Shown here: positions 21,838 to 43,790 of the stretch, in pieces
Numbering within the stretch: position 1 is the stretch's first letter
How the letters are laid out: each line of letters opens with the position of its first letter
Source: an uncultured Opitutaceae bacterium
Lineage (GTDB): Bacteria; Verrucomicrobiota; Verrucomicrobiia; Opitutales; Opitutaceae
Assembly: GCA_903862935.1 (NCBI GenBank)
Contig: CAIOZY010000035.1
Location: 1-45,382 of the forward strand
Length of the DNA: 45,382 bases
Direction of reading: 5' to 3'
Program-made: the position numbers and the translations under genes
Notes under the pieces: model-generated
Databases searched by the model: none
Seen by the model: only the letters and a program-made list of their open reading frames with translations
What the model was told of the DNA's origin: nothing

Positions 21838-22194
21838 ATGAAGATAGAATCTCAGCTCACCGACGACAGCATCCTCAAAGAGCTGGGTGCACGTCTTACC
21901 GGTGCCAGGTTGGGGTGCAACCTGACCCAGGCGGCTCTGGCCGAGCAAGCCGGCGTCTCGAAGCGAACGGTGGAGCGGCTGGAGTCGGGCGAAGTGGCGA
22001 CGCACCTCTCGGGCTTTCTGAGGGTGTGTCGGGTCTTGGGCCTGTTGGAGGGCCTCGAGGCGCTCGTGCCGGTTCCGACCGCGAGCCCGATGGAGCAACT
22101 GAAGCTCCACGGCCGCAAACGCCAGCGGGCCTCGGGCCGCAGAAGCGCGGCGGGCGGGGAGCCGGAGAAATGGACCTGGGGTGACCGGGTATGA
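21838..22194 (+). CDS. hipB: HipB-like antitoxin
   Basis: A 118-residue Xre-family DNA-binding protein. The helix-turn-helix (about 14-70) contains LTQAALAEQAGVSKRTVERLESGE, the typical HipB/Cro pattern. The tail is basic (KRQRASGRRS) and ends near Trp residues, which in HipB proteins helps contact HipA. Its stop overlaps the hipA start as ATGA (22191-22194), so the two are translationally coupled. It should bind the four inverted repeats upstream and neutralise HipA. Confidence 0.88.
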   Translation: MKIESQLTDDSILKELGARLTGARLGCNLTQAALAEQAGVSKRTVERLESGEVATHLSGFLRVCRVLGLLEGLEALVPVPTASPMEQLKLHGRKRQRASGRRSAAGGEPEKWTWGDRV

Positions 22195-24595: not shown

Positions 24596-24598
24596 GTG

Positions 24599-24611
24599 GT
24601 CAACGGTTAAT
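24599..24611 (+). promoter_or_regulatory. LacI-type operator, site A
   Basis: GTCAAC-G-GTTAAT matches GTYAAC-N-GTTRAC at all but the last base. It lies 3 bases upstream of the regulator's start codon, which suggests autoregulation. Confidence 0.65.
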
Positions 24612-24658
24612 TGATCCGGGGGTGGCAGCAAGGGGAAAGCCGGGGAATCCCGATAAAG

Positions 24659-24671
24659 GTTAACGGTTAAC
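24659..24671 (+). promoter_or_regulatory. LacI-type operator, site B
   Basis: GTTAAC-G-GTTAAC fits the consensus fully. It lies 23 bases before ATG 24695 and 60 bases from site A, in the divergent region between the regulator and the ceramidase-fold gene. The short distance to the start favours repression. Confidence 0.75.
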
Positions 24672-24694
24672 AGCCAGGACCCATTGACAGGAGA

Positions 24695-26132: not shown

Positions 26133-27527
26133 ATGAAGACCTACGTCATTCTCCTATTGGCTGCGACGACGGCGATGGCCGATGGGGGCGGCCTCAACGA
26201 AAAATACACGGCCTGGAAATATGCGATCGAAGTCCAGGCGAAGAATGGCGAGACCTTCGCCAGGCCTGGGGAGATCGTGGATGTGGGGCTGGCGATCCCC
26301 ACCGACCGGGCGGCCAACCTCAAGGGCGACCTCCGAGTCGTGCAGAAGCGGGGGTTCGACCTGCTCTTACGGGAGATTCCCGCGCAGATCTACGGGTTAA
26401 AGACGTCGGGAGACCGGACGGAGTTCAGGGTCATATTCAAAGCCGACTTCCAGCCGTCCTCCACGGAGAGGTTCGCTGTCTTCTACGACAACCCGAAGGC
26501 TCTTCCCGACGAGGGGCAGCCCGGGATTGGGATCCAGCAGGCGCCTCAGGCGCTGTCCCTGGAAACCCCGTTCTATTCGGTGAAGATTGACCCGGCCACG
26601 GGGCAGTGCATGGCCCTTGAAAGCCGGATCCCGGGAAACCAACCCATCTACCGCGGCGGAGGATTCTTCCCGCTGCCGGTGGTCACGGTTCCCTCGGGCA
26701 GCGGGGACATGGCCCAGCCGACTGGTCTCGAGGCAGCACGCGCTCCAGGCCACCCCGATCAAGTGATCGTGGGGCCTGTCTTTTCAGAGATCAAGGGGAG
26801 CCGGGAGCTTGTTGCGGCACATGGAGACGCAGTGGCGAGGGTCAAGTTCGTCTACCTCTTCCTGAAGGATGAGCGGTATTTCGTGGTGAAAAGCTCGCTT
26901 CACTTCCTCAAGGATACACCGGTCTACGCGGTCGAATTGAACCGGTTTGCGGCAGATCAGGCAGAGCTGACCCACTACTTCTTCCGGCCCTACACGCCCA
27001 GCTTCCGTCCCACGGAGATCGAGGAGGTCGGGAGCATTATGGTCGACGCCGGGACGCGAAAGGGACTGCCGAATGCCGACCTGCTCGCGGGGATGCTGCC
27101 GGTGGACCTTGCCTGGCATGCGGTGGGCAACATCGACAAGGGCTTCTCAGTGACGGCCTTCAACCTGTCCTCGCATAGCAGCGGCACGAACAGCCCGGTT
27201 CCGAACTACCGGCCGGCCACGAGGGCCCGGGTCCGGTCTGGCCTTGTGGAGCTATCCAATGCGCCCATCTGCGTGGGAACCCAGAAGGGGGCGCTCAACA
27301 CGGTCTCCGTGCCGAAGGGCACGGTTTTCGAGGAGGCCCAGGCCATCTCCTTCTCGGACTGGAACAACGGGGGCTGGAGATCGGTCACCGACCAATTGGG
27401 GCGCCAGCTGAACACGGCGCTGGAGATCACGGTCTATCCCCAGACCTATCGGACGGTTGGGCAACTTCCTGTCCTACCTCATCATGGCGAGAGGGGCGGG
27501 GCTTATGAAAGGAGCGGAATCCGATGA
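26133..27527 (+). CDS. Secreted protein of unknown family B, copy 1
   Basis: A 464-residue protein with signal peptide MKTYVILLLAATTAMA. I recognise no catalytic family. The N-terminal domain (20-120) has NLKGDLRVVQKRGFD and ends RFAVFYDNP. This resembles beta-sandwich domains at the front of some glycan-active enzymes and is like the N-domain of family A. Features shared with copy 2 (37601): TPFYSVKIDPATGQC; LTHYFFRPYTPSF and TEIEEVGS; DLLAGMLPVDLAW; an NYR...TRAR segment; and LNTALEITVYP near the end. His281 and His329 lie in or near these blocks. It overlaps the following family A gene by ATGA, so the two are translationally coupled. A lyase, hydrolase or carbohydrate-binding role is open. 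Confidence 0.8.
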   Translation: MKTYVILLLAATTAMADGGGLNEKYTAWKYAIEVQAKNGETFARPGEIVDVGLAIPTDRAANLKGDLRVVQKRGFDLLLREIPAQIYGLKTSGDRTEFRVIFKADFQPSSTERFAVFYDNPKALPDEGQPGIGIQQAPQALSLETPFYSVKIDPATGQCMALESRIPGNQPIYRGGGFFPLPVVTVPSGSGDMAQPTGLEAARAPGHPDQVIVGPVFSEIKGSRELVAAHGDAVARVKFVYLFLKDERYFVVKSSLHFLKDTPVYAVELNRFAADQAELTHYFFRPYTPSFRPTEIEEVGSIMVDAGTRKGLPNADLLAGMLPVDLAWHAVGNIDKGFSVTAFNLSSHSSGTNSPVPNYRPATRARVRSGLVELSNAPICVGTQKGALNTVSVPKGTVFEEAQAISFSDWNNGGWRSVTDQLGRQLNTALEITVYPQTYRTVGQLPVLPHHGERGGAYERSGIR

Positions 27528-28972
27528 ATATACGCACAAGTCTAATCCTGATGCTGGCTGTGGCCGGCCCGGTCGCGGCGCAGTCATTCGACGCGTCGGC
27601 ATGGAAGGGCTACAAGTCATTCTCGGTCTCCGAAACGGCGGGCATTGCCCGGAAGCAGGAGCCGGTTGATGTGAAGTTCTCTCTGCCGGCAACCGGAGAA
27701 ACCCCGGCGGCTGGGCTCCGGGTCGCCGAAGAGGTCAATGGGCGTTGGACCGAGATCCCGGCGCAGTTCTATGACGTGCGAGCGGACAAGGAGGCGGTGC
27801 TCTCAGGAAGGGTGGCCTTCTATTGCAGCCTTCCCGCTGGCGGGGTCAGGGCCTACAGGATCTACTATGGAGGCCCGGCGGACACCCAAAGTCACAGTAC
27901 AAAGCTTGTAGTCCAGGGGGTGGGCCAGGGAGACCCCAAGGAGACCCGGCACTGGATGATCGAGAACGCGTTCTACCGCATGGAAACCTATCCCAGCAGT
28001 GGCCAGATCTGGCACATCTGGGACAAGCAGGGTTCTAACCAGATGTGGTGGTTTAAGGAATGGAACGGGAAGGAAAAGGGAGGAGATCCTGTCCATTGGT
28101 CCCCCAACGTCTGGGTGGCCTATCCCGACCGGGCCAGGGCCGAGGCGGGGAGCTCCGAGACGAAGGTCCTGGCGCAGCCGTTCGAGTGGAACTACGTCGT
28201 CGGATGGAAGACCCCCAAAACGGAGGTCGTGAGCGGCCCGATCTTCTTCGAGGTAAGGCGAACAGGCCCGGTGCCGCGGTGGCCTGAGCACTCGGACCCC
28301 GCCTACCCGGATCAGCCCAAGGATATCGTCTGGGGCGAGGTGACCTATCGGTTCTACTCGGAATTGCCGTGGATTTTCCAGGCATCCACCTATGTGACCT
28401 TGCAGGACATGGACGTCTATTTTATCCGGAATAACCAGACGGCGTTTGACCACGAGTTGTTCACCCACGCGGCGATCAGGCCGGAGACCTCCGGGTTGCT
28501 CGCAGGGGATAGCGACGAGACATGTGCGTTCCCGCTGATGTCCTACTTCCACCGCATGCCCTTCGACGCGTCCAAACCCTACGACGCCTTCTCCAACAGC
28601 CAGCACAGCCTCAGTAACGTGCTCCCGAGCAAGCTGGCCTTCTTCACCCTGTTCAACATGGGCAACGGAGACGCCTACGCCAACTTTGCCCTGGTCGAGG
28701 ACAATTCCACGACGGACGGCCATGCCCCCACCATGAGGAACCACCACATGATTCTCTCGGAGGAGAGCGGAAGCGACTCGTTCTCGCGGACCTTCGACTA
28801 CACGAACCTCCGGTTCAACCCGGAGAACGTGACCTTCCTGCCGAAGGGCCAGAAGTTCCACGAGGAGAATGTCCACCTGATCTACCGCTACGAGGGCCCG
28901 GACAGCCTGGGCATGCTCGAGCGACTGCATCAGACCTTCCAGCATCCGCTGCTGGTGGACTGGTATCCGTAA
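27524..28972 (+). CDS. Secreted protein of unknown family A, copy 1
   Basis: A 482-residue protein with signal peptide MNIRTSLILMLAVAGPVAAQ. The N-terminal beta domain (21-118) contains ETAGIAR and ends YRIYYG. The core is very rich in conserved aromatics and His: FYRMETYP (150-157), GQIWHIWDKQG (160-170), WWFKEWNG (175-182), HWSPNVW (191-197), EHSDP (255-259), EVTYRFY, MDVYFIRNNQ, HSLSNVLPS (361-369), NHHM (406-409), FDYTNLRF and a closing HLIYRYEG. The same blocks occur in the copies at 36111 and 39007. Such conservation suggests an active site or glycan-binding cleft, but I cannot name the enzyme class. It starts inside the stop of family B copy 1 (ATGA) and ends the operon. Confidence 0.8.
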   Translation: MNIRTSLILMLAVAGPVAAQSFDASAWKGYKSFSVSETAGIARKQEPVDVKFSLPATGETPAAGLRVAEEVNGRWTEIPAQFYDVRADKEAVLSGRVAFYCSLPAGGVRAYRIYYGGPADTQSHSTKLVVQGVGQGDPKETRHWMIENAFYRMETYPSSGQIWHIWDKQGSNQMWWFKEWNGKEKGGDPVHWSPNVWVAYPDRARAEAGSSETKVLAQPFEWNYVVGWKTPKTEVVSGPIFFEVRRTGPVPRWPEHSDPAYPDQPKDIVWGEVTYRFYSELPWIFQASTYVTLQDMDVYFIRNNQTAFDHELFTHAAIRPETSGLLAGDSDETCAFPLMSYFHRMPFDASKPYDAFSNSQHSLSNVLPSKLAFFTLFNMGNGDAYANFALVEDNSTTDGHAPTMRNHHMILSEESGSDSFSRTFDYTNLRFNPENVTFLPKGQKFHEENVHLIYRYEGPDSLGMLERLHQTFQHPLLVDWYP

Positions 28973-29010
28973 AGGGGGGGGGATCCACTCGCGGCGCCGC
29001 CCGCCGCTCC

Positions 29011-29055
29011 CGCACCCGGCTGTCAACGGACCTATTGTCCGGGCAGGCGGGTGCG
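29011..29055. terminator. Bidirectional hairpin between convergent operons
   Basis: CGCACCCG (29011-29018) pairs with CGGGTGCG (29048-29055), and an inner CGGAC/GTCCG stem (29027-29031 with 29037-29041) is closed by CTATT. It sits between the convergent ends of the family A gene (28972) and the epimerase gene (29066) and could stop transcription both ways. There is no T-tract. Confidence 0.5.
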
Positions 29056-29065
29056 CCTAGGTGAG

Positions 29066-30307
29066 TCAGCTGAACCGGGGATCGCCGCTCGACCGGAGGC
29101 GGTCGATCGACTCAATTCCCATGAGAAGCCCGCGGGGCAGGTGGAACGGGTCTTTTACGGGAAGGACGAGGAACGGATCGTACGGCCGGCCCTCGCGATC
29201 GAGGCGCTGGCGCCACTCGCCGTGCTCGGCGACCGGATAGCGGGGAAGGGCCCAGTCCATGATCCGCCGGTGCCAGATGAGCCACTTTTCCGACCGATCC
29301 ACCTCGTAGGCCATCAAGGTGGCCGCCAGGGCCTCGGTTACCGGCCACCAGAGCTTGAACATGCCGTGCTTCCAGTAGACGGGCAGGTTGCCGAGGATGT
29401 CGATTCCCAGGAGGATCCCGCCGAATTCCGGGTCCCAGCCGCGCTCCAGGCAGCATTCGAGGGTCTTGAGGATGGTCGGGATGTCGTCCTTGCGGCCCGA
29501 TCGCCGGGCAATGTCCAGGAGGAACCACATCGACTCTATCCCGTGTCCGGGGACCATCGCGCGCCCCGGGGGGGTGTCGGAGAAGCTCCCGTCCCGGTTG
29601 ACGTATTCGACGAGGCCGTTGCGCTCGGGCTTGATGAACTCGTGAATGATCTGGTCGCAGAAGTACCGCGCGGCATCCAGGGTCCCGGCATCCCCGAGAA
29701 ACTCACCCAACTCGTAAAAGGCGAGAGCGCTCATCATCGCGGTCCCGTGAGCCTTCATCCCTGGGGGGAGGGCGTAGGGCGCCTTGTCGAACGGCTGGCC
29801 GCTGCGGATCAGGGAGTAGGTGCGGGAGAAGGTGCGGCGGGCCAGATCGAGCGGCTCCTCGGTTCCGGCCGCCAGCGCATATTCGATCAAGCCCATGATC
29901 GCGAAGTGATTGGTGGCCAGGCTGAGGGGTCCGTCGAGGGGCTGACCCTCGCGGGAGACGCGAAAGCGCCATCGGCAATCGTCGTCGGGGCCGTACCGGC
30001 GGCAGAAGTCGTACTGGCTGCGGGCCATCTCCAGCCACTGTGGGTTGCGGTCAAACCGGCGGTAGATGGCGCTGAAGGTCCAAAGCGCCCGGGTCTGGGA
30101 CCACAGGTACTTGTCGGAGGTGATCAGCTTCCCCGCGTCGTCGATGCAGTTGAGGAGGCCCCCATGCTCCTTGTCGATCGCGTGGCGGGGCCAGAAGGGC
30201 ATGACGAATTCCTGGAGGTGGCGCCGGTAGGCCGGCCCCCAATCGGCTGTCCTGTCCGGTAGGCGGCTTAGGGCCCCGGGGTGTGGGAGGCTTTTTTCGA
30301 GGTTCAT
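29066..30307 (-). CDS. N-acylglucosamine 2-epimerase family protein
   Basis: A 413-residue cytoplasmic protein of normal length for the AGE/renin-binding-protein family, which interconverts N-acetylglucosamine and N-acetylmannosamine. The (alpha/alpha)6-barrel signature segments are present: GGLLNCIDD, KYLWSQTRALWTFS, GPLSLATNHFAIMG, PGHGIESMWFLL with a catalytic-type His, and KLWWPVTEAL. The start at 30307 overlaps the nagA stop (ATGA), so it is translationally coupled as the last gene of the nagB-nagA-epimerase operon. This context supports an amino-sugar substrate. Some family members act on plain sugars or cellobiose instead, so the exact substrate is not certain. Confidence 0.88.
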   Translation of the reverse strand: MNLEKSLPHPGALSRLPDRTADWGPAYRRHLQEFVMPFWPRHAIDKEHGGLLNCIDDAGKLITSDKYLWSQTRALWTFSAIYRRFDRNPQWLEMARSQYDFCRRYGPDDDCRWRFRVSREGQPLDGPLSLATNHFAIMGLIEYALAAGTEEPLDLARRTFSRTYSLIRSGQPFDKAPYALPPGMKAHGTAMMSALAFYELGEFLGDAGTLDAARYFCDQIIHEFIKPERNGLVEYVNRDGSFSDTPPGRAMVPGHGIESMWFLLDIARRSGRKDDIPTILKTLECCLERGWDPEFGGILLGIDILGNLPVYWKHGMFKLWWPVTEALAATLMAYEVDRSEKWLIWHRRIMDWALPRYPVAEHGEWRQRLDREGRPYDPFLVLPVKDPFHLPRGLLMGIESIDRLRSSGDPRFS

Positions 30308-31284
30308 GGCAGGAGCGCGGTCACGGGAACTTTGATTTTGGGGAGGGTTATGCCGAAGATTCTGGCGGGCCTGCGGGACGCCAGGTCCCACGCCGTGTCA
30401 TAGGAAAGCCCGATCCAACGGTGAAGGTTCGCTACCCCCCGGTCCAGGGTGAGGGAGGAGCCGCAGAGGTAGCCGGAGCGGCCGCGGAAGGCGATGACGC
30501 CGTCTCGGCCGCAGGTGAACCGGGCCATCCGGGCACCGCGCCGCATGTAGAAGGGCCCCGGGCTGGCGGCGGCTGCGGCGACGGCGTCCGTTGTGACGAC
30601 GACCTTCCCGGCGGGCTTGGCCCGCAGGAAGTTCTTCAGGACGAACGGGGCGATGTGAATTCCATCGGGGATGAAGCTTGCCACCAGATCATCCCGGGCG
30701 AGCAGGCGCTGAATGATGTTGTCATGGCGGGCAACGAGCATCCGGCAGCCATTGCCGAGGTGCGTGCACATCGTGGCCCCTGCGCGCACCGCCTTGTCTA
30801 TCTGCCCATTGTCGGCGTTGGTGTGGCCGAGGGAGACGACGACCCCGTCAGAAACGACGGCGGCGATAAACGCGGCGCTTCCGGGCCATTCCGGGGCGAT
30901 CGTGAGCAGGCGGATATTCCCGTTCGCGGCCTTCTGCATCTGCCTGAACTCCCGGAGCTCGGGACCCTTCATGTAGGAAGCAAGGTGCGCGCCTCGGTAC
31001 CCTTCCTCGGGGCTTAGGTAGGGGCCCTCCAGGTGGTATCCGGCGATCGTCTCCGCCACCAACGGATCCTCCGCGCGCATGGCCTCGATCCGCCTGAACT
31101 TCGCCTCGAGGGACCCGATCGAGTCGGTGATCAGGGTGAGAAGGATCCGGTGGGTGTGGCAGCGGCGCAACGCGATGCAGCTGCGGCGCAGGTCGGAGGC
31201 CTTGAGCCGGGGGTCCTGGAAGTCGACTCCGGCGAAGCCGTTAACCTGGATGTCAAAGAGACTCGGGCGTAGGTTGAATTTCAC
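30304..31284 (-). CDS. nagA: N-acetylglucosamine-6-phosphate deacetylase, compact form
   Basis: 326 residues from a GTG at 31284 that overlaps the nagB stop (GTGA). It removes the acetyl group from GlcNAc-6-phosphate. Metal and catalytic residues are present: Glu86 in HLEGP, His154 in SLGHTNAD, His175 in CTHLGNGC and Asp233 in TTDAV. The first-strand motif FDIQVNG matches the VQLNG type of E. coli NagA rather than HxH. It is shorter than the usual roughly 380 residues: the N-terminal small beta-domain strands are missing, and the C-terminus ends soon after RPARIFGIT. Compact NagA-like proteins may accept other N-acetyl sugars. The neighbours, deaminase upstream and epimerase downstream, fit the standard pathway. 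Confidence 0.87.
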   Translation of the reverse strand: MKFNLRPSLFDIQVNGFAGVDFQDPRLKASDLRRSCIALRRCHTHRILLTLITDSIGSLEAKFRRIEAMRAEDPLVAETIAGYHLEGPYLSPEEGYRGAHLASYMKGPELREFRQMQKAANGNIRLLTIAPEWPGSAAFIAAVVSDGVVVSLGHTNADNGQIDKAVRAGATMCTHLGNGCRMLVARHDNIIQRLLARDDLVASFIPDGIHIAPFVLKNFLRAKPAGKVVVTTDAVAAAAASPGPFYMRRGARMARFTCGRDGVIAFRGRSGYLCGSSLTLDRGVANLHRWIGLSYDTAWDLASRRPARIFGITLPKIKVPVTALLP

Positions 31285-32057
31285 TGCGGGGGGAGTAGGG
31301 AGGCGGAACCTCTGTCGAGGAAGATCGCCGCGTTGTGGTGCTTTCGGAGCATGCTTGCCGGACAGGCAGGGCCTATGGGCCCAAACAGCGCCTGGCGGAC
31401 GGCCTCGGCCTTGCGAACGCCCGGGACCGTGCAGCACAGCCGGGCCGCCCGGGCGAAGACAGGCACCGTGATCGTGATCGCCTGGCGGGGAACGTCCGCC
31501 AGGGCAGGGAAGCAGCCGTCATTGACCTGCTGCCGCCGGCAGGCCGTGTCGAGATCAACCACCTTCGCCAGCAGCGGGTCCGAGAAATTCGCAACCGGGG
31601 GATCGTTGAAGGCGACATGGCCGTTCTCGCCGATTCCCATGGCGATCACGTCGATCGGCCCCTCCGCGAGGAACGCGGCATAGCGGGCTGCGGCGGCCTG
31701 CGCCGGCATGGTCTCGGCAGGGATGGGATAAAACTGGGCGACCTCCACCTGGTCGAGGAAGTGACGCCTGAGGTACGAGCGGAAGCTCCGGGGATCGGCA
31801 TCCTGGATTCCCACGTACTCGTCCATGTGGAAGACCTCGACCCGGCGCCAGAGGGCCGGGTTCACCCCGGCGCGGGCGACCAGGGAGCGGAAAAAGTCAT
31901 CCTGCGAGGGGGCGCACCCCATCACCACTCGGCATCGGTCCTTTGACCTCAGGGCCTCGATGACCCAACTCTCAAAGCGGCTGGCGGAGGCAGCTCCCAT
32001 CGCTTCGCGGGTGTCGTGGACGGTTATTACAGGGTTGCGGGCAGGGACGGATTTCAT
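31281..32057 (-). CDS. nagB: Glucosamine-6-phosphate deaminase
   Basis: A 258-residue enzyme converting glucosamine-6-phosphate to fructose-6-phosphate and ammonia. Conserved features are the catalytic FHMDEYVG (76-83, Asp79) and GIGENGHVAFNDP (141-153) with catalytic His147. The closing segment, TVPGVRKAEAVRQALFG, matches the family. I take ATG 32057 because it gives the normal length. The frame is open upstream to 32177, but that would cover the operator. It is the first gene of the three-gene minus-strand operon, with operator site C 53 bases upstream. Confidence 0.93.
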   Translation of the reverse strand: MKSVPARNPVITVHDTREAMGAASASRFESWVIEALRSKDRCRVVMGCAPSQDDFFRSLVARAGVNPALWRRVEVFHMDEYVGIQDADPRSFRSYLRRHFLDQVEVAQFYPIPAETMPAQAAAARYAAFLAEGPIDVIAMGIGENGHVAFNDPPVANFSDPLLAKVVDLDTACRRQQVNDGCFPALADVPRQAITITVPVFARAARLCCTVPGVRKAEAVRQALFGPIGPACPASMLRKHHNAAIFLDRGSASLLPPQ

Positions 32058-32109
32058 CGTCGGCACCGCACGCTGGGACGGGCGGTAACGAGATGCGACC
32101 TCGATCCCG

Positions 32110-32122
32110 GTTAACTGTTGAC
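32110..32122 (+). promoter_or_regulatory. LacI-type operator, site C
   Basis: GTTAAC-T-GTTGAC fits GTYAAC-N-GTTRAC fully. It lies between the divergent nagB and MFS genes, 53 and 70 bases from their starts, so one site could control both units. Confidence 0.75.
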
Positions 32123-32191
32123 CCAATCCGATCTTGAAGAAACCCGGCGCCCGTCTTGGATTCGCCGGTGCATTCACCCCAAGGCACCGTT

Positions 32192-33448
32192 GTGAGAACC
32201 ATCAAAGGGCTGCGCTGGTACATCGCGGGACTGTTGTGCCTGTCCACAGCGCTCAACTACCTGGACCGCCAGACCTTGGCGCTCCTTGCCTCGACCCTCG
32301 AGAAGGAGGTGGGGATCACGACAAACCAGTACGCCTACGTCGTGACGGCGTTCCTGGTGAGTTACACGATCATGTACGCGGTGTCCGGCCGGGTGATTGA
32401 CTGGCTCGGAACGCGCAAGGGTTTCGGGATCTTCGTCGGGGCCTGGTCCGTCATCGACCTGCTCCACGCGTTCGCCCGCAACGTCCTCCAGTTCTCCTTC
32501 TGCCGTTTCCTGCTGGGCGCGGCGGAGCCGGCGAACTTCCCGGCCGGGGCCAAGGCCGTGAGCGAGTGGTTCCCCATGCGGGAGCGGGCGCTTGCCGTGG
32601 GTGTCTTCAACTCCGGGACCGCAATTGGGGCGTGTCTTGCCGCGCCGATCGTCGCCTGGGTGACCATCCACTGGGGCTGGCGCTACACGTTTGTCGTCGG
32701 TGCGGTGCTGAGCGCGGCCTGGGCCATCGCCTGGATGCTCGTCTACCGCGTGCCGCGGGAGCACCGCAGGCTCGGGGCCGACGAGTTGAAGCTGATTGAG
32801 GACGGGGCTGCGCCCGCGGTGAAGCGGACATCCGTGTCCCTGCGGCGGCTCCTGAGGGTCCGCGAGGTCTGGGGGTGCATCCTGGTGAGGGTGCTGATGG
32901 ATCCGATCTCGTATTTTTGCATCTTCTGGATGCCGCGGTTTCTGCAGCAGGAGCGCGGGTTCGACTTGGGGATGCTCGGACGCTACTACTGGATACCCTG
33001 GGTCGCCGGGGCCTTGGGTAACCTGACCGGTGGCGCGGTGCCCCGGTACCTCACTCGGCGGGGCTGGGCGCTCGGCCGGGCCCGAAAGACCATGATGTTC
33101 GTGGCCTCAGCCGTGCTGCTCCTCTGCTTCGTGGCCGTGCCCCGGGTTCCCAGTCCGGGCCTGTCCATCGCGCTGATCAGCCTGGCTTTGTTCTGCACCC
33201 AGAATTTCTGTTTTATGGCGCTTCCCGCGGAGACCCTGCCGGAGGAGGTCGTAGGTTCCGTGACCGGCTTTGGGGGGGCGATGGGTTCCCTCGTCGGAGC
33301 CCTGACGATGATCATCATCGGCCGGGTCACCAAGGTGTGGTCCTTCTCGCCGATCTTTGTAGTGTACTCTGTATTCCCCATGGCGGCGTTTTTTGTTGTC
33401 TGTACGCTGCTCCGCAACCTCGGCAAGGCGCGCGAGATTCCGGCCTGA
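32192..33448 (+). CDS. MFS sugar transporter, ExuT-like
   Basis: A 418-residue inner-membrane transporter with about 12 hydrophobic segments. It has the anion:cation symporter signature seen in hexuronate transporters: LNYLDRQTLALLA in the first helix, GRVIDWLGTRKGF between helices 2 and 3, and FCRFLLGAAEPANFPAGAKAVSEWF. I choose the GTG at 32192, which places RTIKGLRWYIAG just before helix 1. An upstream in-frame TTG at 32156 is possible. ExuT relatives carry uronic acids or acidic sugars, so the substrate may be an acidic or amino sugar. It follows operator site C and leads toward the receptor gene. Confidence 0.85.
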   Translation: MRTIKGLRWYIAGLLCLSTALNYLDRQTLALLASTLEKEVGITTNQYAYVVTAFLVSYTIMYAVSGRVIDWLGTRKGFGIFVGAWSVIDLLHAFARNVLQFSFCRFLLGAAEPANFPAGAKAVSEWFPMRERALAVGVFNSGTAIGACLAAPIVAWVTIHWGWRYTFVVGAVLSAAWAIAWMLVYRVPREHRRLGADELKLIEDGAAPAVKRTSVSLRRLLRVREVWGCILVRVLMDPISYFCIFWMPRFLQQERGFDLGMLGRYYWIPWVAGALGNLTGGAVPRYLTRRGWALGRARKTMMFVASAVLLLCFVAVPRVPSPGLSIALISLALFCTQNFCFMALPAETLPEEVVGSVTGFGGAMGSLVGALTMIIIGRVTKVWSFSPIFVVYSVFPMAAFFVVCTLLRNLGKAREIPA

Positions 33449-33705
33449 ATAGAGAATATTATTTGAGGGGTCCGGACCTCACCGGGCTATAAGGTCAACA
33501 GTTGACTTAAATAGTTGTCGCGAAAATGGGCCGCACGAATTGCGATCACGCCGCTGACAACAGACGCCCGGTGGGCACCCCCACGATATATTACACCGCG
33601 CTGAGCTTCACCACACCTCCCCATAACCCCGCTAGCCTTCTTGCTAGATAGACTGTCTCGTCCTGCATCAGGTATGAGCCAGTTTTCGAACCCAACCTAA
33701 CGACA
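33449..33705 (+). promoter_or_regulatory. Control region and leader of the TonB receptor
   Basis: A 257-base gap after the MFS gene. It holds operator site D at 33494-33506 and then about 200 bases of leader up to the receptor ATG. An AT-rich stretch (TTAAATAG) follows the operator and may be part of a promoter. Confidence 0.45.
33494..33506 (+). promoter_or_regulatory. LacI-type operator, site D
   Basis: GTCAAC-A-GTTGAC has perfect 6-bp arms around one base and is the most symmetrical of the four sites. It lies 199 bases upstream of the receptor gene, so transcription of the receptor and the genes behind it is likely under the same regulator. Confidence 0.75.
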
Positions 33706-36051
33706 ATGAGACACCATCAAAACGTACTGAGTATCGTGGCCGCAGCTGCCATGGCAGTGGCCACTGTCGCGTCCTTCGGCCAGACGGCCGCGACCCCCGC
33801 ACCCAAAACCGACCAAGCCGCTCCCGGATCGGGAGAAATTGTTACCTTGCCGGCGTTCGGTGTGAACGCATCTGCTGCGAACCAGTACCAGGCCGACGAG
33901 GAAATGTCGGCCTCGCGAACGGCCGGGAAGATCTTGGACACCTCGATGACGGTCAACGTCATCACCCCGGCGTTCATGCAGGACATCGGCCCGGCGACCA
34001 TCTACGACGTGACGAAGTACTTTGCCGGTGTGAGCCCGGGCCGTGGCTCGGGTTCCTCGGGCATCAACGACCGCATGGTGTTCCGGGGGTTCGAGAGCTT
34101 CACCAAGACGCTCGATAATTTCTCGGGGTTTCTCTTTCCCTCCTCCGCTGCGGACGGCGGCAACATCGATCCGGTGTTCGTGGAGCACGCGGAACTGCTG
34201 ATGGGCCCGGACTCGATCCTGGCGCCGACCGGCACTCCGGGTGGATCGGTGAACCTGGTTACAAAATCGCCGCAGTTTAACCGCAGCACGGACATCTCCG
34301 CTATGCTGGGCAAATATGACGCCGGCAAGTTCACGGTCGACACGACCGGTCCGCTGGGCGACGGCAAGCACATGGCCTACCGCCTTATCGCGATGTACCA
34401 GGATTCGGACACCTTCCCGCAGGGTGGGAACCTGATCTATGCGGGCAGCGCGATGCTGACCTACAAGTTCTCCGACAAGGCCCAGCTGACCTTCAAGTAT
34501 ATCGGCCAACAGGAGACCTACAAGGGCACGGCTACCCTGTGCAACCTCGACGGCGAGCAGGTCTACACGGCGGACACGGTCCGGGGGATGACGCTCTCGG
34601 CGACGCCCCAGCCGGGATTCACCTACGACGGATGGAACGGCGATGCGCCCTGGAGCTATCGCACCATGCGCGACAACTACTTCCAGGCCGAGTTGACCTC
34701 GGCGCTCACTGATCGAATCAACGTCCGCCTGGGTGCCCAGCTCTATTACAACTCGACGACCAACTGGATGGCGTATCCGACCGGCGGCGAGGCCAACTCA
34801 TGGGATCCGGTGACCGGCGTGGAAATCGGGGTCACCCCCATCAATCCTGCCGCCCTCAACGAGGTCGGGACCTGGGAGGCCTCTGTAAATCGGCAGATCC
34901 AGCTCCAAAACGACTACGCCGGAAACTTCGAATTCAATGGGATGACCGTCCAGCCCGTGATCGGATGGTCCTACCAGCAGGGCGCCTTCTTCACAAACCT
35001 CTACCTGCAGGACAAGAGCATGCCGACGGCCAACCTGGCGGCGGGGGTCTACAACCCGCCACAGCCGTCGATGTCGCAGATGACCGCCCTCACGGGCGAC
35101 ACGCCCTCGAACGGATGGATGTACCAGGCGTACGCCTTCACGCGCCTTGGCCTGTTCAAGGACCGGATGTTCGTGACGGCCGGGGTGGAGCGCACCTGGA
35201 CGAACGTGAATATCTACAACGTGCACGCCTACAACCTGCCGGGCTACGGCCCAATCGGAACGGGCGCGCCCACCGGGCACGTCACCCAGGCTGCCACGGG
35301 CAATTTGCTCCAGCCCTCGGTCAAGCCGAGCCACGACGCCTATATGGCCGGGCTTCTGTACAAGATCACCCCCGAGGTGTCCGGATACGTCTCGTTTACC
35401 ACGAACGCGCAGGTCGCCTACAGCGTCCCGCTGTGGGAGGCCGGAAAGCAGTACGAGTTCGGCCTGAAGTCCTCCCTGTTCAACAACAGGCTCTCCGTCA
35501 GCGTGGACCACTTCCAGATCTCGGAGAGTAACGTCCAGTCGGGAAACCCGCTCTACAACACGGGCCAATCCCTCATTCCCTACCTGTACGCCGACCTGAC
35601 CAACAAGGGCTACGAGGCGAGCATTACCGGAGGGATCACCGACAACCTCTCGGCCGTGATCAGCGGAACGACGATGCACCTGCGCGACTTCGCGGGACGC
35701 AGGCAGCGCAACATTCCCGACAACATGGCGACCTTCCTTCTCAACTACCGGTTCACGGACAAGCTGCTGAAGGGAGCGAACGTCTTCGCCGCCTACATCC
35801 ACCAAGGGTCTGTGGCCGGGGAGACGGTCACGGGATTCACCTCCCTGGGGGTTGCGGAGCTGCCGGGATTCTACGTGGCGGCCTACAACATCATCAACGC
35901 CGGCGCCGGCTACAAGATCGACCGGTACCAGTTCAACCTGAACGTGGACAACGTCGCGAACACCAAGGCCTGGTGGCAGGCCTCGAGCCGCACGTCCCTG
36001 TTCCCCTATCCGCCCATCACGTTTAGGTTCACCATGACGGTGCATCTCTGA
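33706..36051 (+). CDS. TonB-dependent outer-membrane receptor
   Basis: A 781-residue protein. The signal peptide (VLSIVAAAAMAVATVASFGQ) is followed by a Pro/Ala linker, then VTLPAFGVNASAANQY, an N-terminal style typical of Opitutaceae receptors and probably the TonB-contact region. The plug domain spans about 65-190 (SMTVNVITPAFMQDIG, MVFRGFESF, PDSILAPTGTPGGSVNLVTK). The 22-strand barrel follows and ends in the aromatic-rich FRFTMTVHL. It would take up glycan fragments made by the secreted A and B proteins, although siderophore-like uptake cannot be excluded from sequence alone. Operator D and the locus context favour a glycan. The start is ATG 33706. Confidence 0.92.
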   Translation: MRHHQNVLSIVAAAAMAVATVASFGQTAATPAPKTDQAAPGSGEIVTLPAFGVNASAANQYQADEEMSASRTAGKILDTSMTVNVITPAFMQDIGPATIYDVTKYFAGVSPGRGSGSSGINDRMVFRGFESFTKTLDNFSGFLFPSSAADGGNIDPVFVEHAELLMGPDSILAPTGTPGGSVNLVTKSPQFNRSTDISAMLGKYDAGKFTVDTTGPLGDGKHMAYRLIAMYQDSDTFPQGGNLIYAGSAMLTYKFSDKAQLTFKYIGQQETYKGTATLCNLDGEQVYTADTVRGMTLSATPQPGFTYDGWNGDAPWSYRTMRDNYFQAELTSALTDRINVRLGAQLYYNSTTNWMAYPTGGEANSWDPVTGVEIGVTPINPAALNEVGTWEASVNRQIQLQNDYAGNFEFNGMTVQPVIGWSYQQGAFFTNLYLQDKSMPTANLAAGVYNPPQPSMSQMTALTGDTPSNGWMYQAYAFTRLGLFKDRMFVTAGVERTWTNVNIYNVHAYNLPGYGPIGTGAPTGHVTQAATGNLLQPSVKPSHDAYMAGLLYKITPEVSGYVSFTTNAQVAYSVPLWEAGKQYEFGLKSSLFNNRLSVSVDHFQISESNVQSGNPLYNTGQSLIPYLYADLTNKGYEASITGGITDNLSAVISGTTMHLRDFAGRRQRNIPDNMATFLLNYRFTDKLLKGANVFAAYIHQGSVAGETVTGFTSLGVAELPGFYVAAYNIINAGAGYKIDRYQFNLNVDNVANTKAWWQASSRTSLFPYPPITFRFTMTVHL

Positions 36052-36059
36052 TTCTGAAA

Positions 36060-36089
36060 GGGGGAAGCTCCGGGAAAGGCGCTTCCCCC
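36060..36089 (+). terminator. Hairpin after the receptor gene
   Basis: GGGGGAAGC (36060-36068) and GCTTCCCCC (36081-36089) form a 9-bp stem with a 12-base loop, 9 bases after the receptor stop and 21 before the next start. Without a T-tract it is more likely a processing or attenuation point inside the operon that favours receptor mRNA. Confidence 0.5.
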
Positions 36090-36110
36090 CGCAACCTTCC
36101 GGGAAGATCG

Positions 36111-37568
36111 ATGCTCCGTATTTGTATAGCGTTTTTCCTGACGATCTTCCCGGCCTTCGCGGAGCCCGGAACTTTTGATGTTGGAGGTTGGCAGGGCTAC
36201 AAGCCCTTGACGGTCACGGAGACTGCCGGGATAGCCCGGAGCGGGGATCCCGTTGACGTGGCGTTCTCCTTGCTTGGGGTAGTTACGGTGTCGGCGGCCC
36301 TTCGGGTAATTACGGTAACACCCGAAGGGCCGACCGAACTTCCGGCCCAGTTCTACGATATAAAGCCCGCCCCAGGCGGGGGGATCGAGGGCAGGGTGGC
36401 GTTCCTCTGCGCCATTCCGGCGGGCGGGCGCAGGACGTTCCGCCTCTACTATGGCAAGAGCGGGGCGGGACCGGGCCGCTACCCGGAGGCCATCTCGATG
36501 AAACCGGCCCCGGGCGGACCCATTGGCGGTCCCATGCATTGGATGATCGAGAACCCCTTTTACCGCATTGAGACCTACCCGAAGAACGGCCAGATCTGGC
36601 ATATCTGGGACAAGCAGGGGGCGAACCGGATCTGGTGGTTCAAGGAGTGGAACGGCCTGGAAAAGGGCGGGGATCCGGTCGACTGGTCGCCCAACGTCTG
36701 GGTCGCCTATCCCGACCGGGTGAACGTCGATCCGTGGAACCTCAAGCAGAAGGGCAAGACCTTCGCGCAGCCCTTTGACTGGCATTATGTGGTCGGCTGG
36801 GTCGAGCCGGCGACCTTAGTGATCCAGGGGCCCGTCTTTGTGGAGATCCGGCGCCAGGGCCCGGTGCTTGCGCATCCCGAGCACTCGGACCCGGCCTGTG
36901 ACAGGCCGTCAGCGCCCATCGTCCGGGCCGAGGTGACCTACCGGTTTTACGCGGGTCTGCCGTGGTACTTCCAGTCCTCAGTCCTGACGACCCTCGCGGA
37001 GATGGACGCCTACTTCATCCGGAACAGCCAGATGGTCTTCAGAGACGACATCTTCTCGCATCTGGCCGTGCATCCGCGGACACCCGGCCTCGCGGCCGGA
37101 GACCGCGACGAAACATGCATCGTGCCGCTGATGGGGCACTTCGACAGGATGCCCTTCGCTCATCCGGCGGACGGCACGGTGGTGGCCCAGGGGCATAGCC
37201 TGAGTAACGTCCTGCCGAGCCGTTTTGGCTACTACAGTCTCTTTAACCCCCAGACAGGCGACGGCTACGCCAATTTCCCGCTGACCGAACGCAATTCGAC
37301 TGAGTCGGGAGGAGTTCCCGTGATGCGAAACCACCACATGAGCCTCTCCGAAGGCCATGACTGGACGGTCTACTTCGCCAGGACCTTTGCGTACACGAAC
37401 CAGCGCTTCAATCCCGAGAACGCGACCCCCCTGGAGCGGGGGCTGCGGTTCGAGGAGGAGAATATCCACCTGATCTACCGCTACGAGGGTCTGCAGAGCC
37501 TCGGCGCTCTCGAGCGGCTCCACCAGGCCCTTGACCACCCCCTGGTGGCCGAGTGGACCGCGCCTTGA
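36111..37568 (+). CDS. Secreted protein of unknown family A, copy 2
   Basis: A 485-residue protein with signal peptide MLRICIAFFLTIFPAFA. All family A blocks are present: ETAGIAR, FYRIETYP, QIWHIWDKQG, WWFKEWNG, DWSPNVW (Asp where copies 1 and 3 have His), EHSDP, EVTYRFY, HSLSNVLPS, NHHM, and a C-terminal IYRYEG. It is not preceded by a B gene, but a B-A pair follows. A perfect 13-bp inverted repeat (36295-36307 with 36320-36332) lies within its N-terminal coding region, where copies 1 and 3 have unrelated sequence. Export is expected. The function is unknown. Confidence 0.8.
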   Translation: MLRICIAFFLTIFPAFAEPGTFDVGGWQGYKPLTVTETAGIARSGDPVDVAFSLLGVVTVSAALRVITVTPEGPTELPAQFYDIKPAPGGGIEGRVAFLCAIPAGGRRTFRLYYGKSGAGPGRYPEAISMKPAPGGPIGGPMHWMIENPFYRIETYPKNGQIWHIWDKQGANRIWWFKEWNGLEKGGDPVDWSPNVWVAYPDRVNVDPWNLKQKGKTFAQPFDWHYVVGWVEPATLVIQGPVFVEIRRQGPVLAHPEHSDPACDRPSAPIVRAEVTYRFYAGLPWYFQSSVLTTLAEMDAYFIRNSQMVFRDDIFSHLAVHPRTPGLAAGDRDETCIVPLMGHFDRMPFAHPADGTVVAQGHSLSNVLPSRFGYYSLFNPQTGDGYANFPLTERNSTESGGVPVMRNHHMSLSEGHDWTVYFARTFAYTNQRFNPENATPLERGLRFEEENIHLIYRYEGLQSLGALERLHQALDHPLVAEWTAP

Positions 37569-37600
37569 GTGGCGGCCAATTTCCTACATCCCATCGTGCT

Positions 37601-39010
37601 ATGAGAATTTTCATCCTGTTGTTGGTCGCCTGCGGCCTTGCGCGCGCCGACACCGCCTCGCTGCCCGAGCGCTACGTCGCCTGGAAATATGCGGCGGAGG
37701 TTCAGGTCAGAAACACCGGCCCGCGCGAGCGGCTCCGGGAGGTCATCGACGTGGGGCTCAGGCTGCCGGCCAGCCGGGCAGGCAACCTCAAGGGCGATGC
37801 CCGTGTCGTCCTCAAGCGCGGGTACGACGAACTGGTTCGGGAGGTTCCCTTCCAAATCTACGACATCGCGACAAGCGGCGGGTACACGACCTGCCGGGTG
37901 GCCTTCTGCGCGGACCTGCCCGCCAACTCTTCCCAGAGGTTTGCGGTATTTTATGACAACCCCGCGGCCAGGGCGCCTGTCTTCGAGCCCATGGTCAGGC
38001 TGGTTCGGTCTGCGGGGAGCCTCGCGGTCCGGACACCGTTCTACGCGGCGGAGTTCGACGAGGAAACGGGGCAGTGCGTCGGGCTGAAGAGCCTGGTCGC
38101 CCCGGGAGGAACCCTCTATGCGGAACCGGCCGATCATCGGGGCGGGAGCCCGTGGCCGCTTCCTTCTGTCTCGGTGCCGGCCCTGGAGACCGAGGAGAAC
38201 AGGCCCGAGGCCCTGAGGCTTGCAAAGGCATCCGGGGACGGGGAGGAAATCCTTGAGGGGCCCGTTTTCGCCGCGGTCCGCGGCCGGCGGCATTTCCTGG
38301 GCAAGGCGGGGGAGGCGCCGGCTGCGCTGGATTTTGCCTATGTCTTTTACGCCGAGGCCCCGCATTTTGTGGTCGGCACCGCAGTGTCCTTCCTTCGCGA
38401 CACGAACGTCTATTCCCTGGAAACGAACGCCCTGGGGGCGGACCAGGCGCTTCTGACCCACTACCTGTTTCGGCCGGTGACCCCGACCTTCCCCTTAACG
38501 GAGATCGAGGAGGTCGGAAGCGTCATGGTGGACACGGCCACGCGGAAAGGCTACCCGGACGGGGACCTGCTGGCCGGAATGCTCCCGGCCGACCTGGCGT
38601 GGAACGCCGTGTCAAATATTGACAGCGGGCTGACCGCGACGGGGTTCAACCTGCTGCGGAAGGACTCCGCGCCCAACAGGCACGCGGCGAACTACCGGGC
38701 CTCAACCCGGGCGCGCCTGAGGGAGGGCTGGGTGGAGTGGTCCAACGCGCCGGTCTACGTCACGGCCCGGGAGCGGCTCTCCGACGCAATCCTTGTCTCC
38801 CAAGGCACGGTTTTCCGGAGTGCGCAGGCGGTGGCCCTGTCGAACTTCAAGGACGGGGACTGGAGGGCGAAGACCGACGATTACGGACGCCGGCTCAACA
38901 CCCCGATGGAGATCAATATCTATCCGCGTGGGACCGGAGTTGCCGACGACGAGAAGGCGCTTCCGCACTACGGGGTTCGGGTGGACGCCTACCTGCGGGG
39001 AATCCGATGA
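37601..39010 (+). CDS. Secreted protein of unknown family B, copy 2
   Basis: 469 residues from ATG 37601, with signal peptide MRIFILLLVACGLARA. It matches family B copy 1 along its length: AWKYAAEVQ, NLKGDARVVLKRGYDE, RFAVFYDNP, TPFYAAEFDEETGQC, LTHYLFRPVTPTF, EIEEVGSVMVDTATRKG, DLLAGMLPADLAW, SNAPVYV and LNTPMEINIYP. The last residues (LPHYG...RGIR) match LPHHG...SGIR of copy 1. It overlaps family A copy 3 by ATGA, the same junction as in the first B-A pair, with the shared preceding bases GGAATCCG. The pair therefore arose by duplication as a unit. I cannot name the function. Confidence 0.8.
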   Translation: MRIFILLLVACGLARADTASLPERYVAWKYAAEVQVRNTGPRERLREVIDVGLRLPASRAGNLKGDARVVLKRGYDELVREVPFQIYDIATSGGYTTCRVAFCADLPANSSQRFAVFYDNPAARAPVFEPMVRLVRSAGSLAVRTPFYAAEFDEETGQCVGLKSLVAPGGTLYAEPADHRGGSPWPLPSVSVPALETEENRPEALRLAKASGDGEEILEGPVFAAVRGRRHFLGKAGEAPAALDFAYVFYAEAPHFVVGTAVSFLRDTNVYSLETNALGADQALLTHYLFRPVTPTFPLTEIEEVGSVMVDTATRKGYPDGDLLAGMLPADLAWNAVSNIDSGLTATGFNLLRKDSAPNRHAANYRASTRARLREGWVEWSNAPVYVTARERLSDAILVSQGTVFRSAQAVALSNFKDGDWRAKTDDYGRRLNTPMEINIYPRGTGVADDEKALPHYGVRVDAYLRGIR

Positions 39011-41082
39011 GATCGGCAAGGCTTGCGCTTCTGGCGCCCGTTCTTGCGTGCGCAGCCTACGGCAGTCCGTTCAACCCGGCGGGCTGGTCGGGCTACCGGA
39101 CCCTGGTCGTCAGCGAGACTGCGGGGATCGCGCGGGACAAAGACCCTGTGGACGTGTCCTTTTCCGTCCCTTTGGCCGCGCCTGCGGCCGGGGCCTCCCT
39201 GCGGATCGCGGCCGAGGCCGAGGGGGGGCTAATCGAGGTGCCGGCCCAGTTTTACACGATGGGTTCCGGCAACGGAGGGAACCTCTCCGGGAAGGTGGTT
39301 TTTCTGTGCGCGATCCCGGCGGGCGGCCAGAAGGCGTTCCGGCTGTACTATGGCAATCCGGGAGCCGGGATGGGCAGCCCTGAGGGCGGAATCTTCGTCC
39401 GCCCGGCGCCCAAGGGGCCGATTGAGGGCTCCATGCACTGGATCATAGAAAACGCCTTCTACCGGATAGAGACCTACCCCAAGAACGGGCAAATCTGGCA
39501 CATCTGGGACAAGAAGGGCACCAACACGATGTGGTGGTACAAGGAGTGGAACGGCCCGGAAAAGGGGGGGGATCCGATCCACTGGTCGCCGAATATCTGG
39601 ATAGCCTATCCCGACCGCGCGGGGCCCGCCCCCGGGGTCCGCAATGTCGGCAGTCCCGGGGGCGACAAGCTCCTGGCCGAGCCCGAGCACAAGGTCTTCG
39701 CACAGCCCTGGGACTGGCACTATGTGATGGGCTGGGAGAACCCCAAAACTGAGATTATCCAGGGCCCCCTCTTCTGGCAGATCAGGCGGTGGGGCCCGGT
39801 CTCGCCCCATCCGGAGCATTCGGATCCCACCTATGAGCGACCCGCAAAGGATCTGGTCTGGGCCGAGGTGACGTACCGGTTCTACCGGGATCTACCGTGG
39901 TTTTTTCAGTCGTCGACCCTCACGACGTTGGCGGACATGGATGTCTATTTCGTGCGCAATAACCAGATGGTGTTCCGGGACACGATCTTCTCGCATCTGG
40001 CGATCCAGCCGGAGACCGCCGGACTCATGCCTGGGGACCGGGACGAGACGTGCATCCTGCCCCTGAAGGCGTATTTCGACCGGGCGCCGTTCCCGCGGGA
40101 GTGGCACAGCCTGAGTAACGCGCTTCCGAGCACCTTCGGCTACTACACCCTGTTCAACGCAACCAATGGCGATGGCTACGCCAATTTCCCGCTTTCAGAG
40201 CGCAATTCGACGATCACGGGCGCGCCGCCGACCCTGATGAACCACCACATGAGCCTTAACGAGGGCCACGACTGGTCGGTCTATCTCGCCCGGACCTTCG
40301 ACTACACGAACCACCGGTTCGACCCGGAAAACGCCACATTTCTTCCGGCCGGACAGAGGTTTATGGAGGAGAATGCCCACATGGTGTACCGTTACGACGG
40401 GCTGAAGAGTCTAGCGGAATTGGACCACTGGAATGCGGTCCTCAGGCATCCCTTGGCCGCACACTGGAGCCCCGCCCCGGAGGACGGCAGCGTGGTGTGG
40501 AGCTTGGAGGACCCCCATTCGGTGGGAGGCCGCCAGGCGGTTGTGATCGGGTCCCCGAAGGTGATTCGCGAGGCCGGCGGAGCCGCGGTCCGGTTTGACG
40601 GCGAGGCCGACGGATGGATCGTGGAGACTAACCCCCTGGCGGGACTAAGCAGCTTCACGGTGGAGGTGCTTCTGCGGCCGGCCGTGGACGGCGGCTCGGA
40701 GCAGCGATTCATCCACCTCGAGGACAATGCGGGCCGCCGGATGATGCTGGAGACGCGCCTGACCGCGGAGCGCACCTGGGCGCTGGACTCTTTCCTCACC
40801 GATGGCGTCAACTCGGGGATGCTCCTCGACCGCAAACTCCAGCACACCGCCGGGCAGTGGCACTGGGCGGCGCTTGTCTACGACCAAGGGCAGATGACGA
40901 ACTACGTCGATGGGCGCCAGCAGCTCACGATCCGGGTCGCCTTGAGCCCCATGATCGAGGGCAAGGTGGGGATCGGATTCCGGATGAACCGGGTCTTCTG
41001 GTATCATGGCGACATCCGCGAGATTCGCTTCCATCCGAAGGCCTTGCCCGCGGACCAACTCGCGCACAATCTGCCGCGCTGA
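39007..41082 (+). CDS. Secreted family A protein, copy 3, with LamG-like domain
   Basis: A 691-residue protein with signal peptide MRSARLALLAPVLACAAYG. Residues up to about 485 carry the full set of family A blocks (ETAGIAR, FYRIETYP, QIWHIWDKKG, WWYKEWNG, HWSPNIW, EHSDP, HSLSNALPS, NHHM, MVYRYDG). From about 489 a concanavalin-like LamG domain is added: AAVRFDGEADGWI, SSFTVEVLLRPA, WHWAALVYDQGQMTNYVDGRQ and VGIGFRMNR, ending with a HGDIREIRFHPKAL strand. Such domains usually bind sugars or form jelly-roll folds, so this copy may anchor to the substrate. It is coupled to family B copy 2 by ATGA. The enzyme activity is unknown. Confidence 0.82.
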   Translation: MRSARLALLAPVLACAAYGSPFNPAGWSGYRTLVVSETAGIARDKDPVDVSFSVPLAAPAAGASLRIAAEAEGGLIEVPAQFYTMGSGNGGNLSGKVVFLCAIPAGGQKAFRLYYGNPGAGMGSPEGGIFVRPAPKGPIEGSMHWIIENAFYRIETYPKNGQIWHIWDKKGTNTMWWYKEWNGPEKGGDPIHWSPNIWIAYPDRAGPAPGVRNVGSPGGDKLLAEPEHKVFAQPWDWHYVMGWENPKTEIIQGPLFWQIRRWGPVSPHPEHSDPTYERPAKDLVWAEVTYRFYRDLPWFFQSSTLTTLADMDVYFVRNNQMVFRDTIFSHLAIQPETAGLMPGDRDETCILPLKAYFDRAPFPREWHSLSNALPSTFGYYTLFNATNGDGYANFPLSERNSTITGAPPTLMNHHMSLNEGHDWSVYLARTFDYTNHRFDPENATFLPAGQRFMEENAHMVYRYDGLKSLAELDHWNAVLRHPLAAHWSPAPEDGSVVWSLEDPHSVGGRQAVVIGSPKVIREAGGAAVRFDGEADGWIVETNPLAGLSSFTVEVLLRPAVDGGSEQRFIHLEDNAGRRMMLETRLTAERTWALDSFLTDGVNSGMLLDRKLQHTAGQWHWAALVYDQGQMTNYVDGRQQLTIRVALSPMIEGKVGIGFRMNRVFWYHGDIREIRFHPKALPADQLAHNLPR

Positions 41083-43767: not shown

Positions 43768-43790
43768 AAAGTCGGCAAACGGCCGGGGAC

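Follow-up and report, generated by a model that had tools for sequence, protein, structure and literature searches.

The window analyzed here, a contig of 45 382 nucleotides (CAIOZY010000035.1, assembly GCA_903862935.1) from an uncultured Opitutaceae bacterium, encodes five secreted-type proteins, three denoted A (A1 to A3) and two denoted B (B1 and B2). Sequence comparison firmly indicates that A and B are paralogues within one undescribed secreted family, and our confidence in this family identity and in the predicted fold is high. The models suggest an architecture with an N-terminal barrel followed by a supersandwich, the same core as in lyases of polysaccharide lyase family 26 (PL26) minus their helical toroid. 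As an overall explanation, we lean slightly towards a diverged two-domain family in which A acts on a glycan and B, devoid of a site, is its coupled partner.

A preliminary description of this DNA had treated A and B as two families, a view that is refuted by direct comparison. Two unrelated families placed side by side by chance would fit the A–B identity of merely 22%, but BLASTP aligns the two types over most of their length at E 8e-13 and hhalign gives 98.3% over 435 columns, and chance adjacency is extremely improbable. Furthermore, A and B match one outside family. A profile of 43 outside rows, with no row from the window, matches both over their full length, A at 100% (E 1.7e-44) and B at 99.5% (E 1.8e-22), and the predicted folds are alike. 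As controls, alignments of nine neighbour proteins reached at most 10.2% against the wider family, the maximum belonging to c1, a partner protein from Bacteroidota, and at most 2.5% against A or B. Kinship of B with c1 was considered and rejected (hhalign 0.3%). Both the A–B homology and the additional domain of A3 described below had been overlooked.

All five genes lie on the plus strand, and three A and two B open reading frames (ORFs) are found at the positions described earlier. B1 (26133..27527, +; 464 amino acids, aa), which has lost the canonical site residues of the family, precedes A1 (27524..28972, +; 482 aa), in which the N-terminal barrel occupies approximately residues 20–120 and the supersandwich approximately residues 125–482. 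A2 (36111..37568, +; 485 aa) has Asp at the position of His191 and no B before it, the preceding gene encoding a TonB receptor. B2 (37601..39010, +; 469 aa) is given from its ATG start, the listed ORF beginning earlier at GTG. A3 (39007..41082, +; 691 aa) is an A core extended by a C-terminal lectin-like domain, which Pfam assigns to Laminin_G_3 (concanavalin A-like; residues 533–685, 40603..41061, +, E 2.1e-11). A2 and A3 each share 55% identity with A1, and B1 and B2 share 48%. Codon position 3 is the least conserved in all four comparisons (three A pairs and one B pair), for example 0.70, 0.78, and 0.51 at positions 1, 2, and 3 between A2 and A3, which is the pattern expected of real, constrained genes. 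Signal peptides had been proposed for all five proteins, and each has a hydrophobic N-terminus of signal-peptide type, as read from the sequence rather than by a prediction program. The window is the entire contig, and the locus may run on past its 3′ end.

Two of the three A copies had been described as sharing the same overlap with a B gene and the same preceding bases, and this is borne out: GGAATCCGATGA is found at the B1–A1 junction (27516..27527, +), where the start of A1 overlaps the stop of B1, and at the B2–A3 junction (38999..39010, +). It occurs twice on the plus strand of the window and not on the minus strand, both times as the end of B and the start of A. These bases encode the C-terminus of B, Gly-Ile-Arg and the stop, so the shared stretch represents a conserved B end and a separate signal is not seen. 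The ATGA overlap requires that this Arg be encoded by CGA, a codon seldom used here (17 of the 274 Arg codons counted in nine genes). The B–A overlap is thus kept, without sign of an extra signal. With regard to the motifs listed previously for A, GQIWHIWDK, EHSDP, and NHHM are present in all three copies, but HWSPN is confined to A1 and A3 and reads DWSPN in A2.

Relatives of these proteins were gathered stepwise; where labels are needed, G denotes genomes and L denotes loci of this analysis. The first relative, in G124, was a weak match (E 2e-4 with A1, 3.4e-6 with a five-row profile), and the next were in G351 (E 3.1e-15) and G400 (E 9.3e-5). With the G351 and G124 rows included, the profile reached G569 at E 2.9e-41 and raised G400 to 9.5e-26. 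A pattern query from the aligned G124, G569, and G351 proteins produced 106 pattern matches in genome contigs and 42 confirmed loci outside this genome, among which L057, L059, and L096 are the query places of G124, G569, and G351 themselves. By record label, 31 of the loci are from Bacteroidota, five from Planctomycetota, two from Aminicenantes, and one each from Lentisphaeria, Opitutaceae, Actinomycetota, and one other, covering six groups, or five with Lentisphaeria placed in Verrucomicrobiota. A nine-row profile identified 43 full or near-full members in these 42 loci. In one Aminicenantes metagenome-assembled genome two members stand in tandem (L068:7066-10478), apparently an independent duplication.

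Full-length members are rare in the phylum. At E ≤0.001 the 48-row profile finds some match in 15 of 387 phylum genomes and in 15 of 252 family genomes, and matches over most of the length are, besides those in the own genome, only those of G124 and G569 (phylum set) and G351 and G400 (family set). Each of these four genomes is matched once in this way, without a B–A pair; G124, G569, and G351 are part of the profile by construction and G400 is not. Copy numbers per genome are lower bounds, with four or six candidates scored in each and B1 of the own genome missed in the phylum scan. Among 13 genomes of the genus, the own included, B is present in the own genome only, and no orthologue of A or B was seen in the other genomes searched. 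The A profile found no relatives in genome contigs (40 pattern matches), in a scan that rests on two short peptides. Viral contigs yielded none with A1 (3 pattern matches), the A profile (56 pattern matches), or the queries A8 and A7, and plasmids yielded none with A1 or L035 as the query.

A tree of 49 rows joins A and B (99/90) apart from all other members, with an A clade (100/99), a B clade (100/100), and A2 and A3 as sisters (100/97); 30 of the 43 outside rows form one Bacteroidota clade. Given the midpoint root and a program warning about long branches, this placement is tentative. A and B, five copies in all, have diverged strongly and have to date been seen in no other genome. The B–A unit would have been duplicated, with one A added, a history that fits the tentative tree.

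Searches by sequence bear out the earlier statement that A could not be placed in a known hydrolase or lyase family: neither A nor B matches a characterized family in Pfam, NCBIfam, or the Protein Data Bank (PDB). Pfam gave nothing over cut-off for the five window proteins except Laminin_G_3 on A3, and nothing over cut-off for eight relatives. NCBIfam gave no match for the five proteins and none at E ≤1 for seven relatives. Against PDB sequences, A3 had just two chance-level matches (E 0.064 and E 1), a DUF4861 protein none, and a Bacteroidota member one chance match (E 1.4). The 48-row profile matched no PDB chain at E ≤10, GH174 chains included, a result with which a distant relation is still compatible. 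The nearest Pfam family by profile is DUF4861 (PF16153): hhalign gives 67% for the wider family and 92% for all 48 rows, over approximately 225 columns; A and B taken singly give 35% and 7%, and the HWNP and W-H-SDW motifs fail to align. In hmmscan, hints of DUF4861 appear in two of eight relatives (E 0.11 and 0.2; 11 and 11.9 bits against a cut-off of 22.3 bits), with none in A or B at E ≤1 and none in the own genome. These comparisons support a distant tie of the wider family to DUF4861, as a putative relationship at the profile level. Literature searches found no paper naming DUF4861 or PcRGLX; for PL26 and exo-rhamnogalacturonan lyase nothing useful was among the matches listed, and no PL26 structure paper was found.

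AlphaFold2 models were made from 48-row alignments and compared by Foldseek, with VIA-align as a second look at the Foldseek matches; in VIA-align, rows less than 1 Z apart are ties and families unlisted there may still match. The models of A (predicted local distance difference test, pLDDT, 82.5; predicted template modelling score, pTM, 0.87) and B (pLDDT 80.3, pTM 0.84) are each predicted to contain two beta domains, a small N-terminal barrel and a galactose-mutarotase-like supersandwich, with few helices. In Foldseek, the top match of B is a PL26 lyase (E 3.3e-11), and for A two chains of glycoside hydrolase family 38 (GH38) come first and PL26 third. For A, VIA-align scores include the GH174 fucanase 8jd7_A (Z 19.4, 5.0 Å, 283 residues) and PL26 5xq3_B (Z 18.1, 4.4 Å, 356 residues, chain 23–508). 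For B they include the GH38 protein Ams1 (Z 19.0, 4.4 Å, 285 residues), GH174 (Z 18.3, 3.9 Å, 262 residues), and PL26 5xqo_B (Z 18.0, 4.2 Å, 350 residues, chain 23–665). The longest alignments among the rows listed (324–363 residues) are those with PL26 and with small GH38 enzymes. A fold of carbohydrate-active-enzyme type is thus predicted for both A and B, in keeping with the glycan-type function suggested for them before.

The likeness to PL26 (PcRGLX) lies in a RIFT barrel and a central beta sandwich, over which 350–363 residues superpose in the models. Membership of A and B in PL26 proper, as exo-rhamnogalacturonan lyases, would agree with the best Foldseek match of B, the third chain for A, and the 356 superposed residues of A. 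However, the C-terminal alpha/alpha toroid of PL26 is missing from the A and B models, the extra domain of A3 being Laminin_G_3; identity in the superpositions is 8–12%, and the family has invariant motifs of its own. Nor do the five proteins match PcRGLX_1st, _2nd, or _3rd at E ≤1, the own genome has no PcRGLX_1st match, and the adjoining genes are of amino-sugar type. Along with hhalign values of 0.3–2.5% for the family, A, or B against eleven PL26-type relatives, on which these relatives were rejected as close kin, this makes PL26 membership very improbable. The 48-row profile does match L051 (E 1.7e-10) and L161 (E 1.3e-9) among the ORFs compared (1.3e-8 and 3.4e-7 per genome), where the matched region is Pfam PcRGLX_1st plus PcRGLX_2nd. 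It also matches GH38-type proteins, L165 among them, and others in which Pfam finds nothing, and the tie is therefore to the common barrel-sandwich core, not to PL26 alone.

GH38 alpha-mannosidases share with A and B a barrel-like linker and a supersandwich in their C-terminal region, with weak profile matches (L165), but catalysis in GH38 resides in the N-terminal domain and this domain is missing in A and B. Galactose mutarotases superpose on the second domain (4bze_B, Z 15.9, 5.3 Å, 258 residues), as would be expected if A and B acted on free sugars as mutarotases or epimerase-like proteins. Such a role is improbable in view of the signal-type N-terminus and the extra barrel, the matches to PL26, GH174, and GH38, which score higher and extend further, and the polymer-type context of relatives. 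The endo-1,3-fucanases of GH174 are supersandwich enzymes and give the top Z for A (19.4), but the PDB searches gave no sequence match to them. In addition, the family residues D227 and E305 are replaced in A, as compared with D119, E120, and E218 of Fun174A as given in a review table (PMC11943901).

Candidate site residues were sought by comparing the 43 outside rows with the three A and two B proteins, in A1 numbering. H191, W222, H224, W228, R302, Y419, and R422 are invariant in 43 of 43 outside rows, and D227 and E305 are present in 42 of 43 each, which leaves H191, H224, D227, R302, E305, and R422 as the nearly constant charged residues of the wider family. All three A copies keep W192, W222, W228, R302, N303, and R422; Y419 is kept in two of three and H191 in two of three (Asp in A2). 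In all three, H224 is replaced by Tyr, D227 by Gly, and E305 by Gln. B has Phe or Trp at H191, a gap over 222–224, Glu at R302, and Asn at R422. It keeps D227 in one of two copies, next to the gap, and the other five near-invariant charged residues in neither. Of the near-invariant positions, 11 are charged, His, or amide, and there the family residue is retained in 20 of 33 cells of A and in 5 of 22 of B; at the 21 others, the counts are 42 of 63 and 18 of 42. Loss of the candidate site is partial in A, and near-total and broad in B. Judged by their residues, A and B belong to the family by descent but have diverged from its canonical form. The Trp- and His-rich blocks of A had been read as typical of an active site or glycan cleft, and their role as the active site is made less likely by the change of three of six wider-family charged residues in A and of nearly all in B.

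The genes around the five copies provide further context. Upstream of the locus are a small helix-turn-helix-like ORF (by eye) and then a HipA-type gene (Pfam), together at 21838-23495, a LacI-type regulator (23555..24736, −; Pfam), and, just before B1, a neutral-ceramidase-like protein under the Pfam cut-off (24695..26107, +). Between the two B–A units, on the strand opposite to A and B, lie genes for an N-acylglucosamine 2-epimerase (29066..30391, −), a NagA-type N-acetylglucosamine-6-phosphate deacetylase (30304..31338, −), and a NagB-type glucosamine-6-phosphate deaminase (31281..32177, −). The NagA-type protein matches a solved NagA at E 1.3e-33 and TIGR00221 at E 3.3e-52, yet under the cut-off of the latter, and has no Pfam match; the NagB-type protein is over cut-off for PF01182 and under that of NCBIfam nagB. 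This set (29066-32177) may tell the glycan, and these neighbours point to a putative amino sugar. They are followed by a major facilitator superfamily (MFS) transporter (32156..33448, +) and, directly upstream of A2, the TonB-dependent receptor (33706..36051, +). Downstream of A3 are a Gfo/Idh/MocA oxidoreductase (41113..42375, +), a class-III aminotransferase (42397..43767, +), and an ORF with a URO-D domain (43392-44900; Pfam). As had been stated, no other recognized glycan-cleaving enzyme is apparent, with none among 14 further ORFs, a subset of those in the window, that were scanned with Pfam.

Neighbours of the relatives were examined in flanks of up to 8 kb, some cut by contig ends, so the counts are lower bounds. 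A secreted protein of approximately 890 aa lies upstream of the member in 25 of 42 loci, directly so except in L091, where a fragment intervenes. This protein (in loci within L064–L098) has no clear Pfam family, as scanned for L078, and its C-terminal part looks supersandwich-like by eye. A CBM9-like protein is downstream in 11 of 42 loci (Pfam on one, just under cut-off), DUF4838 proteins occur in nine (five by Pfam, four by BLAST to those), and sulfatases and SusD-type proteins in four each (Pfam on one each, the rest by BLAST cluster). In the G569 locus the member has a GH20-type protein upstream, and relatives of the N-acetylglucosamine 2-epimerase occur in the flanks of L092 and L095. When 11 window neighbours were compared with these flanks by BLAST, only the ceramidase-like (one locus), 2-epimerase (two), and URO-D-type (two) proteins recurred. 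The ceramidase-like homologue (L060:14900-16348), near a planctomycete member, shares 26% identity with the window protein (E 7e-12), and the URO-D-type proteins are near the members of L068 and L070.

Several further features of these loci were observed. Propeller-like proteins (by eye) are directly upstream of members from outside Bacteroidota (L060:6481-7833, L096:5791-7224, and L057:6910-8013), with weak Pfam hits for the L057 protein only. A fusion of DUF4838 with FG-GAP/ASPIC (L094:1137-4844) is upstream of one member, and an FG-GAP/ASPIC protein (L096:8966-10840) follows the Opitutaceae member. A 4-base overlap in L060 was discounted as coupling, since it depends on the longest possible start; a 13-base overlap in L057 is more credible.

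Taken with the predicted fold, these observations make it most likely that A is a secreted supersandwich protein that either acts on or binds a glycan. Glycan handling by A and B is likely, catalysis by A is evenly balanced, and a non-catalytic partner role for B has about the same standing. In the mechanism proposed, A would act outside the cytoplasm on an amino-sugar-containing and probably acidic polymer, with a binding floor formed by the two arginines and three tryptophans that it retains. Tyr224, in place of the family His224, would be the acid/base candidate. Because A retains these arginines, has Tyr at 224, and lacks the acidic residue at both positions, we infer that it may resemble a lyase and not a hydrolase with two carboxylates. 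B, as a translationally coupled paralogue without a site, could serve as a binding or stabilizing partner. Products would enter through the TonB receptor and the MFS transporter, and would be finished by the 2-epimerase, NagA, and NagB.

A contending possibility, rather unlikely but of real weight, is that neither A nor B is catalytic and that both bind glycan at the surface or in the periplasm, capturing a polymer for uptake while enzymes elsewhere in the genome cut it. Both types are without charged residues kept by the wider family, A3 carries a lectin-like domain, and another contig of the genome has a GH20-type match (E 2.3e-5, partial, over cut-off). However, the two invariant arginines and three tryptophans kept by A suggest a working ligand site, and the wider family, in which all 43 rows share seven fixed site residues, looks enzyme-like. 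Several points weigh against A as a glycan-active enzyme with B as its partner. Three of the six near-invariant charged residues are absent from all A copies and a fourth from A2, so A could be non-catalytic. A is not clearly depleted in the charged class as a whole (20 of 33 against 42 of 63), its loss being confined to a few positions. Because approximately 30 of the 43 rows come from closely related Bacteroidota, the count overstates the strength of the invariance. The grouping of invariant residues in one pocket is putative. Many supersandwich chains, including LacZ and mutarotases, score nearly as high as the best matches, and the supersandwich also serves as an accessory domain in GH38 and LacZ; the fold therefore indicates a sugar-related type and is no proof of catalysis. 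The grouping of A with B unites long branches under a midpoint root, and no family member has a known activity.

Many secreted proteins in the glycan-use clusters of little-studied bacteria are still nameless. The one described here is a family in 42 loci with a near-invariant candidate site, for which no relative was found by sequence in Pfam, NCBIfam, or the PDB, and whose Bacteroidota members have a strongly linked partner gene. A more far-reaching proposal, which we regard as possible but doubtful, is that the wider family represents a new class of carbohydrate-active enzymes, cutting its polymer by means of a His/His/Arg/Glu site borne by a supersandwich, with neither toroid nor TIM barrel. 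The window would then record evolution towards a coupled pair, with the site of A rebuilt (Tyr for His) and B a dead paralogue turned partner. If the family is enzymatic, it would offer a new glycan-degrading activity open to testing, with clear residues to mutate. The window may serve as a natural experiment, in which one scaffold carries a site that appears partly rebuilt in A and lost in B.

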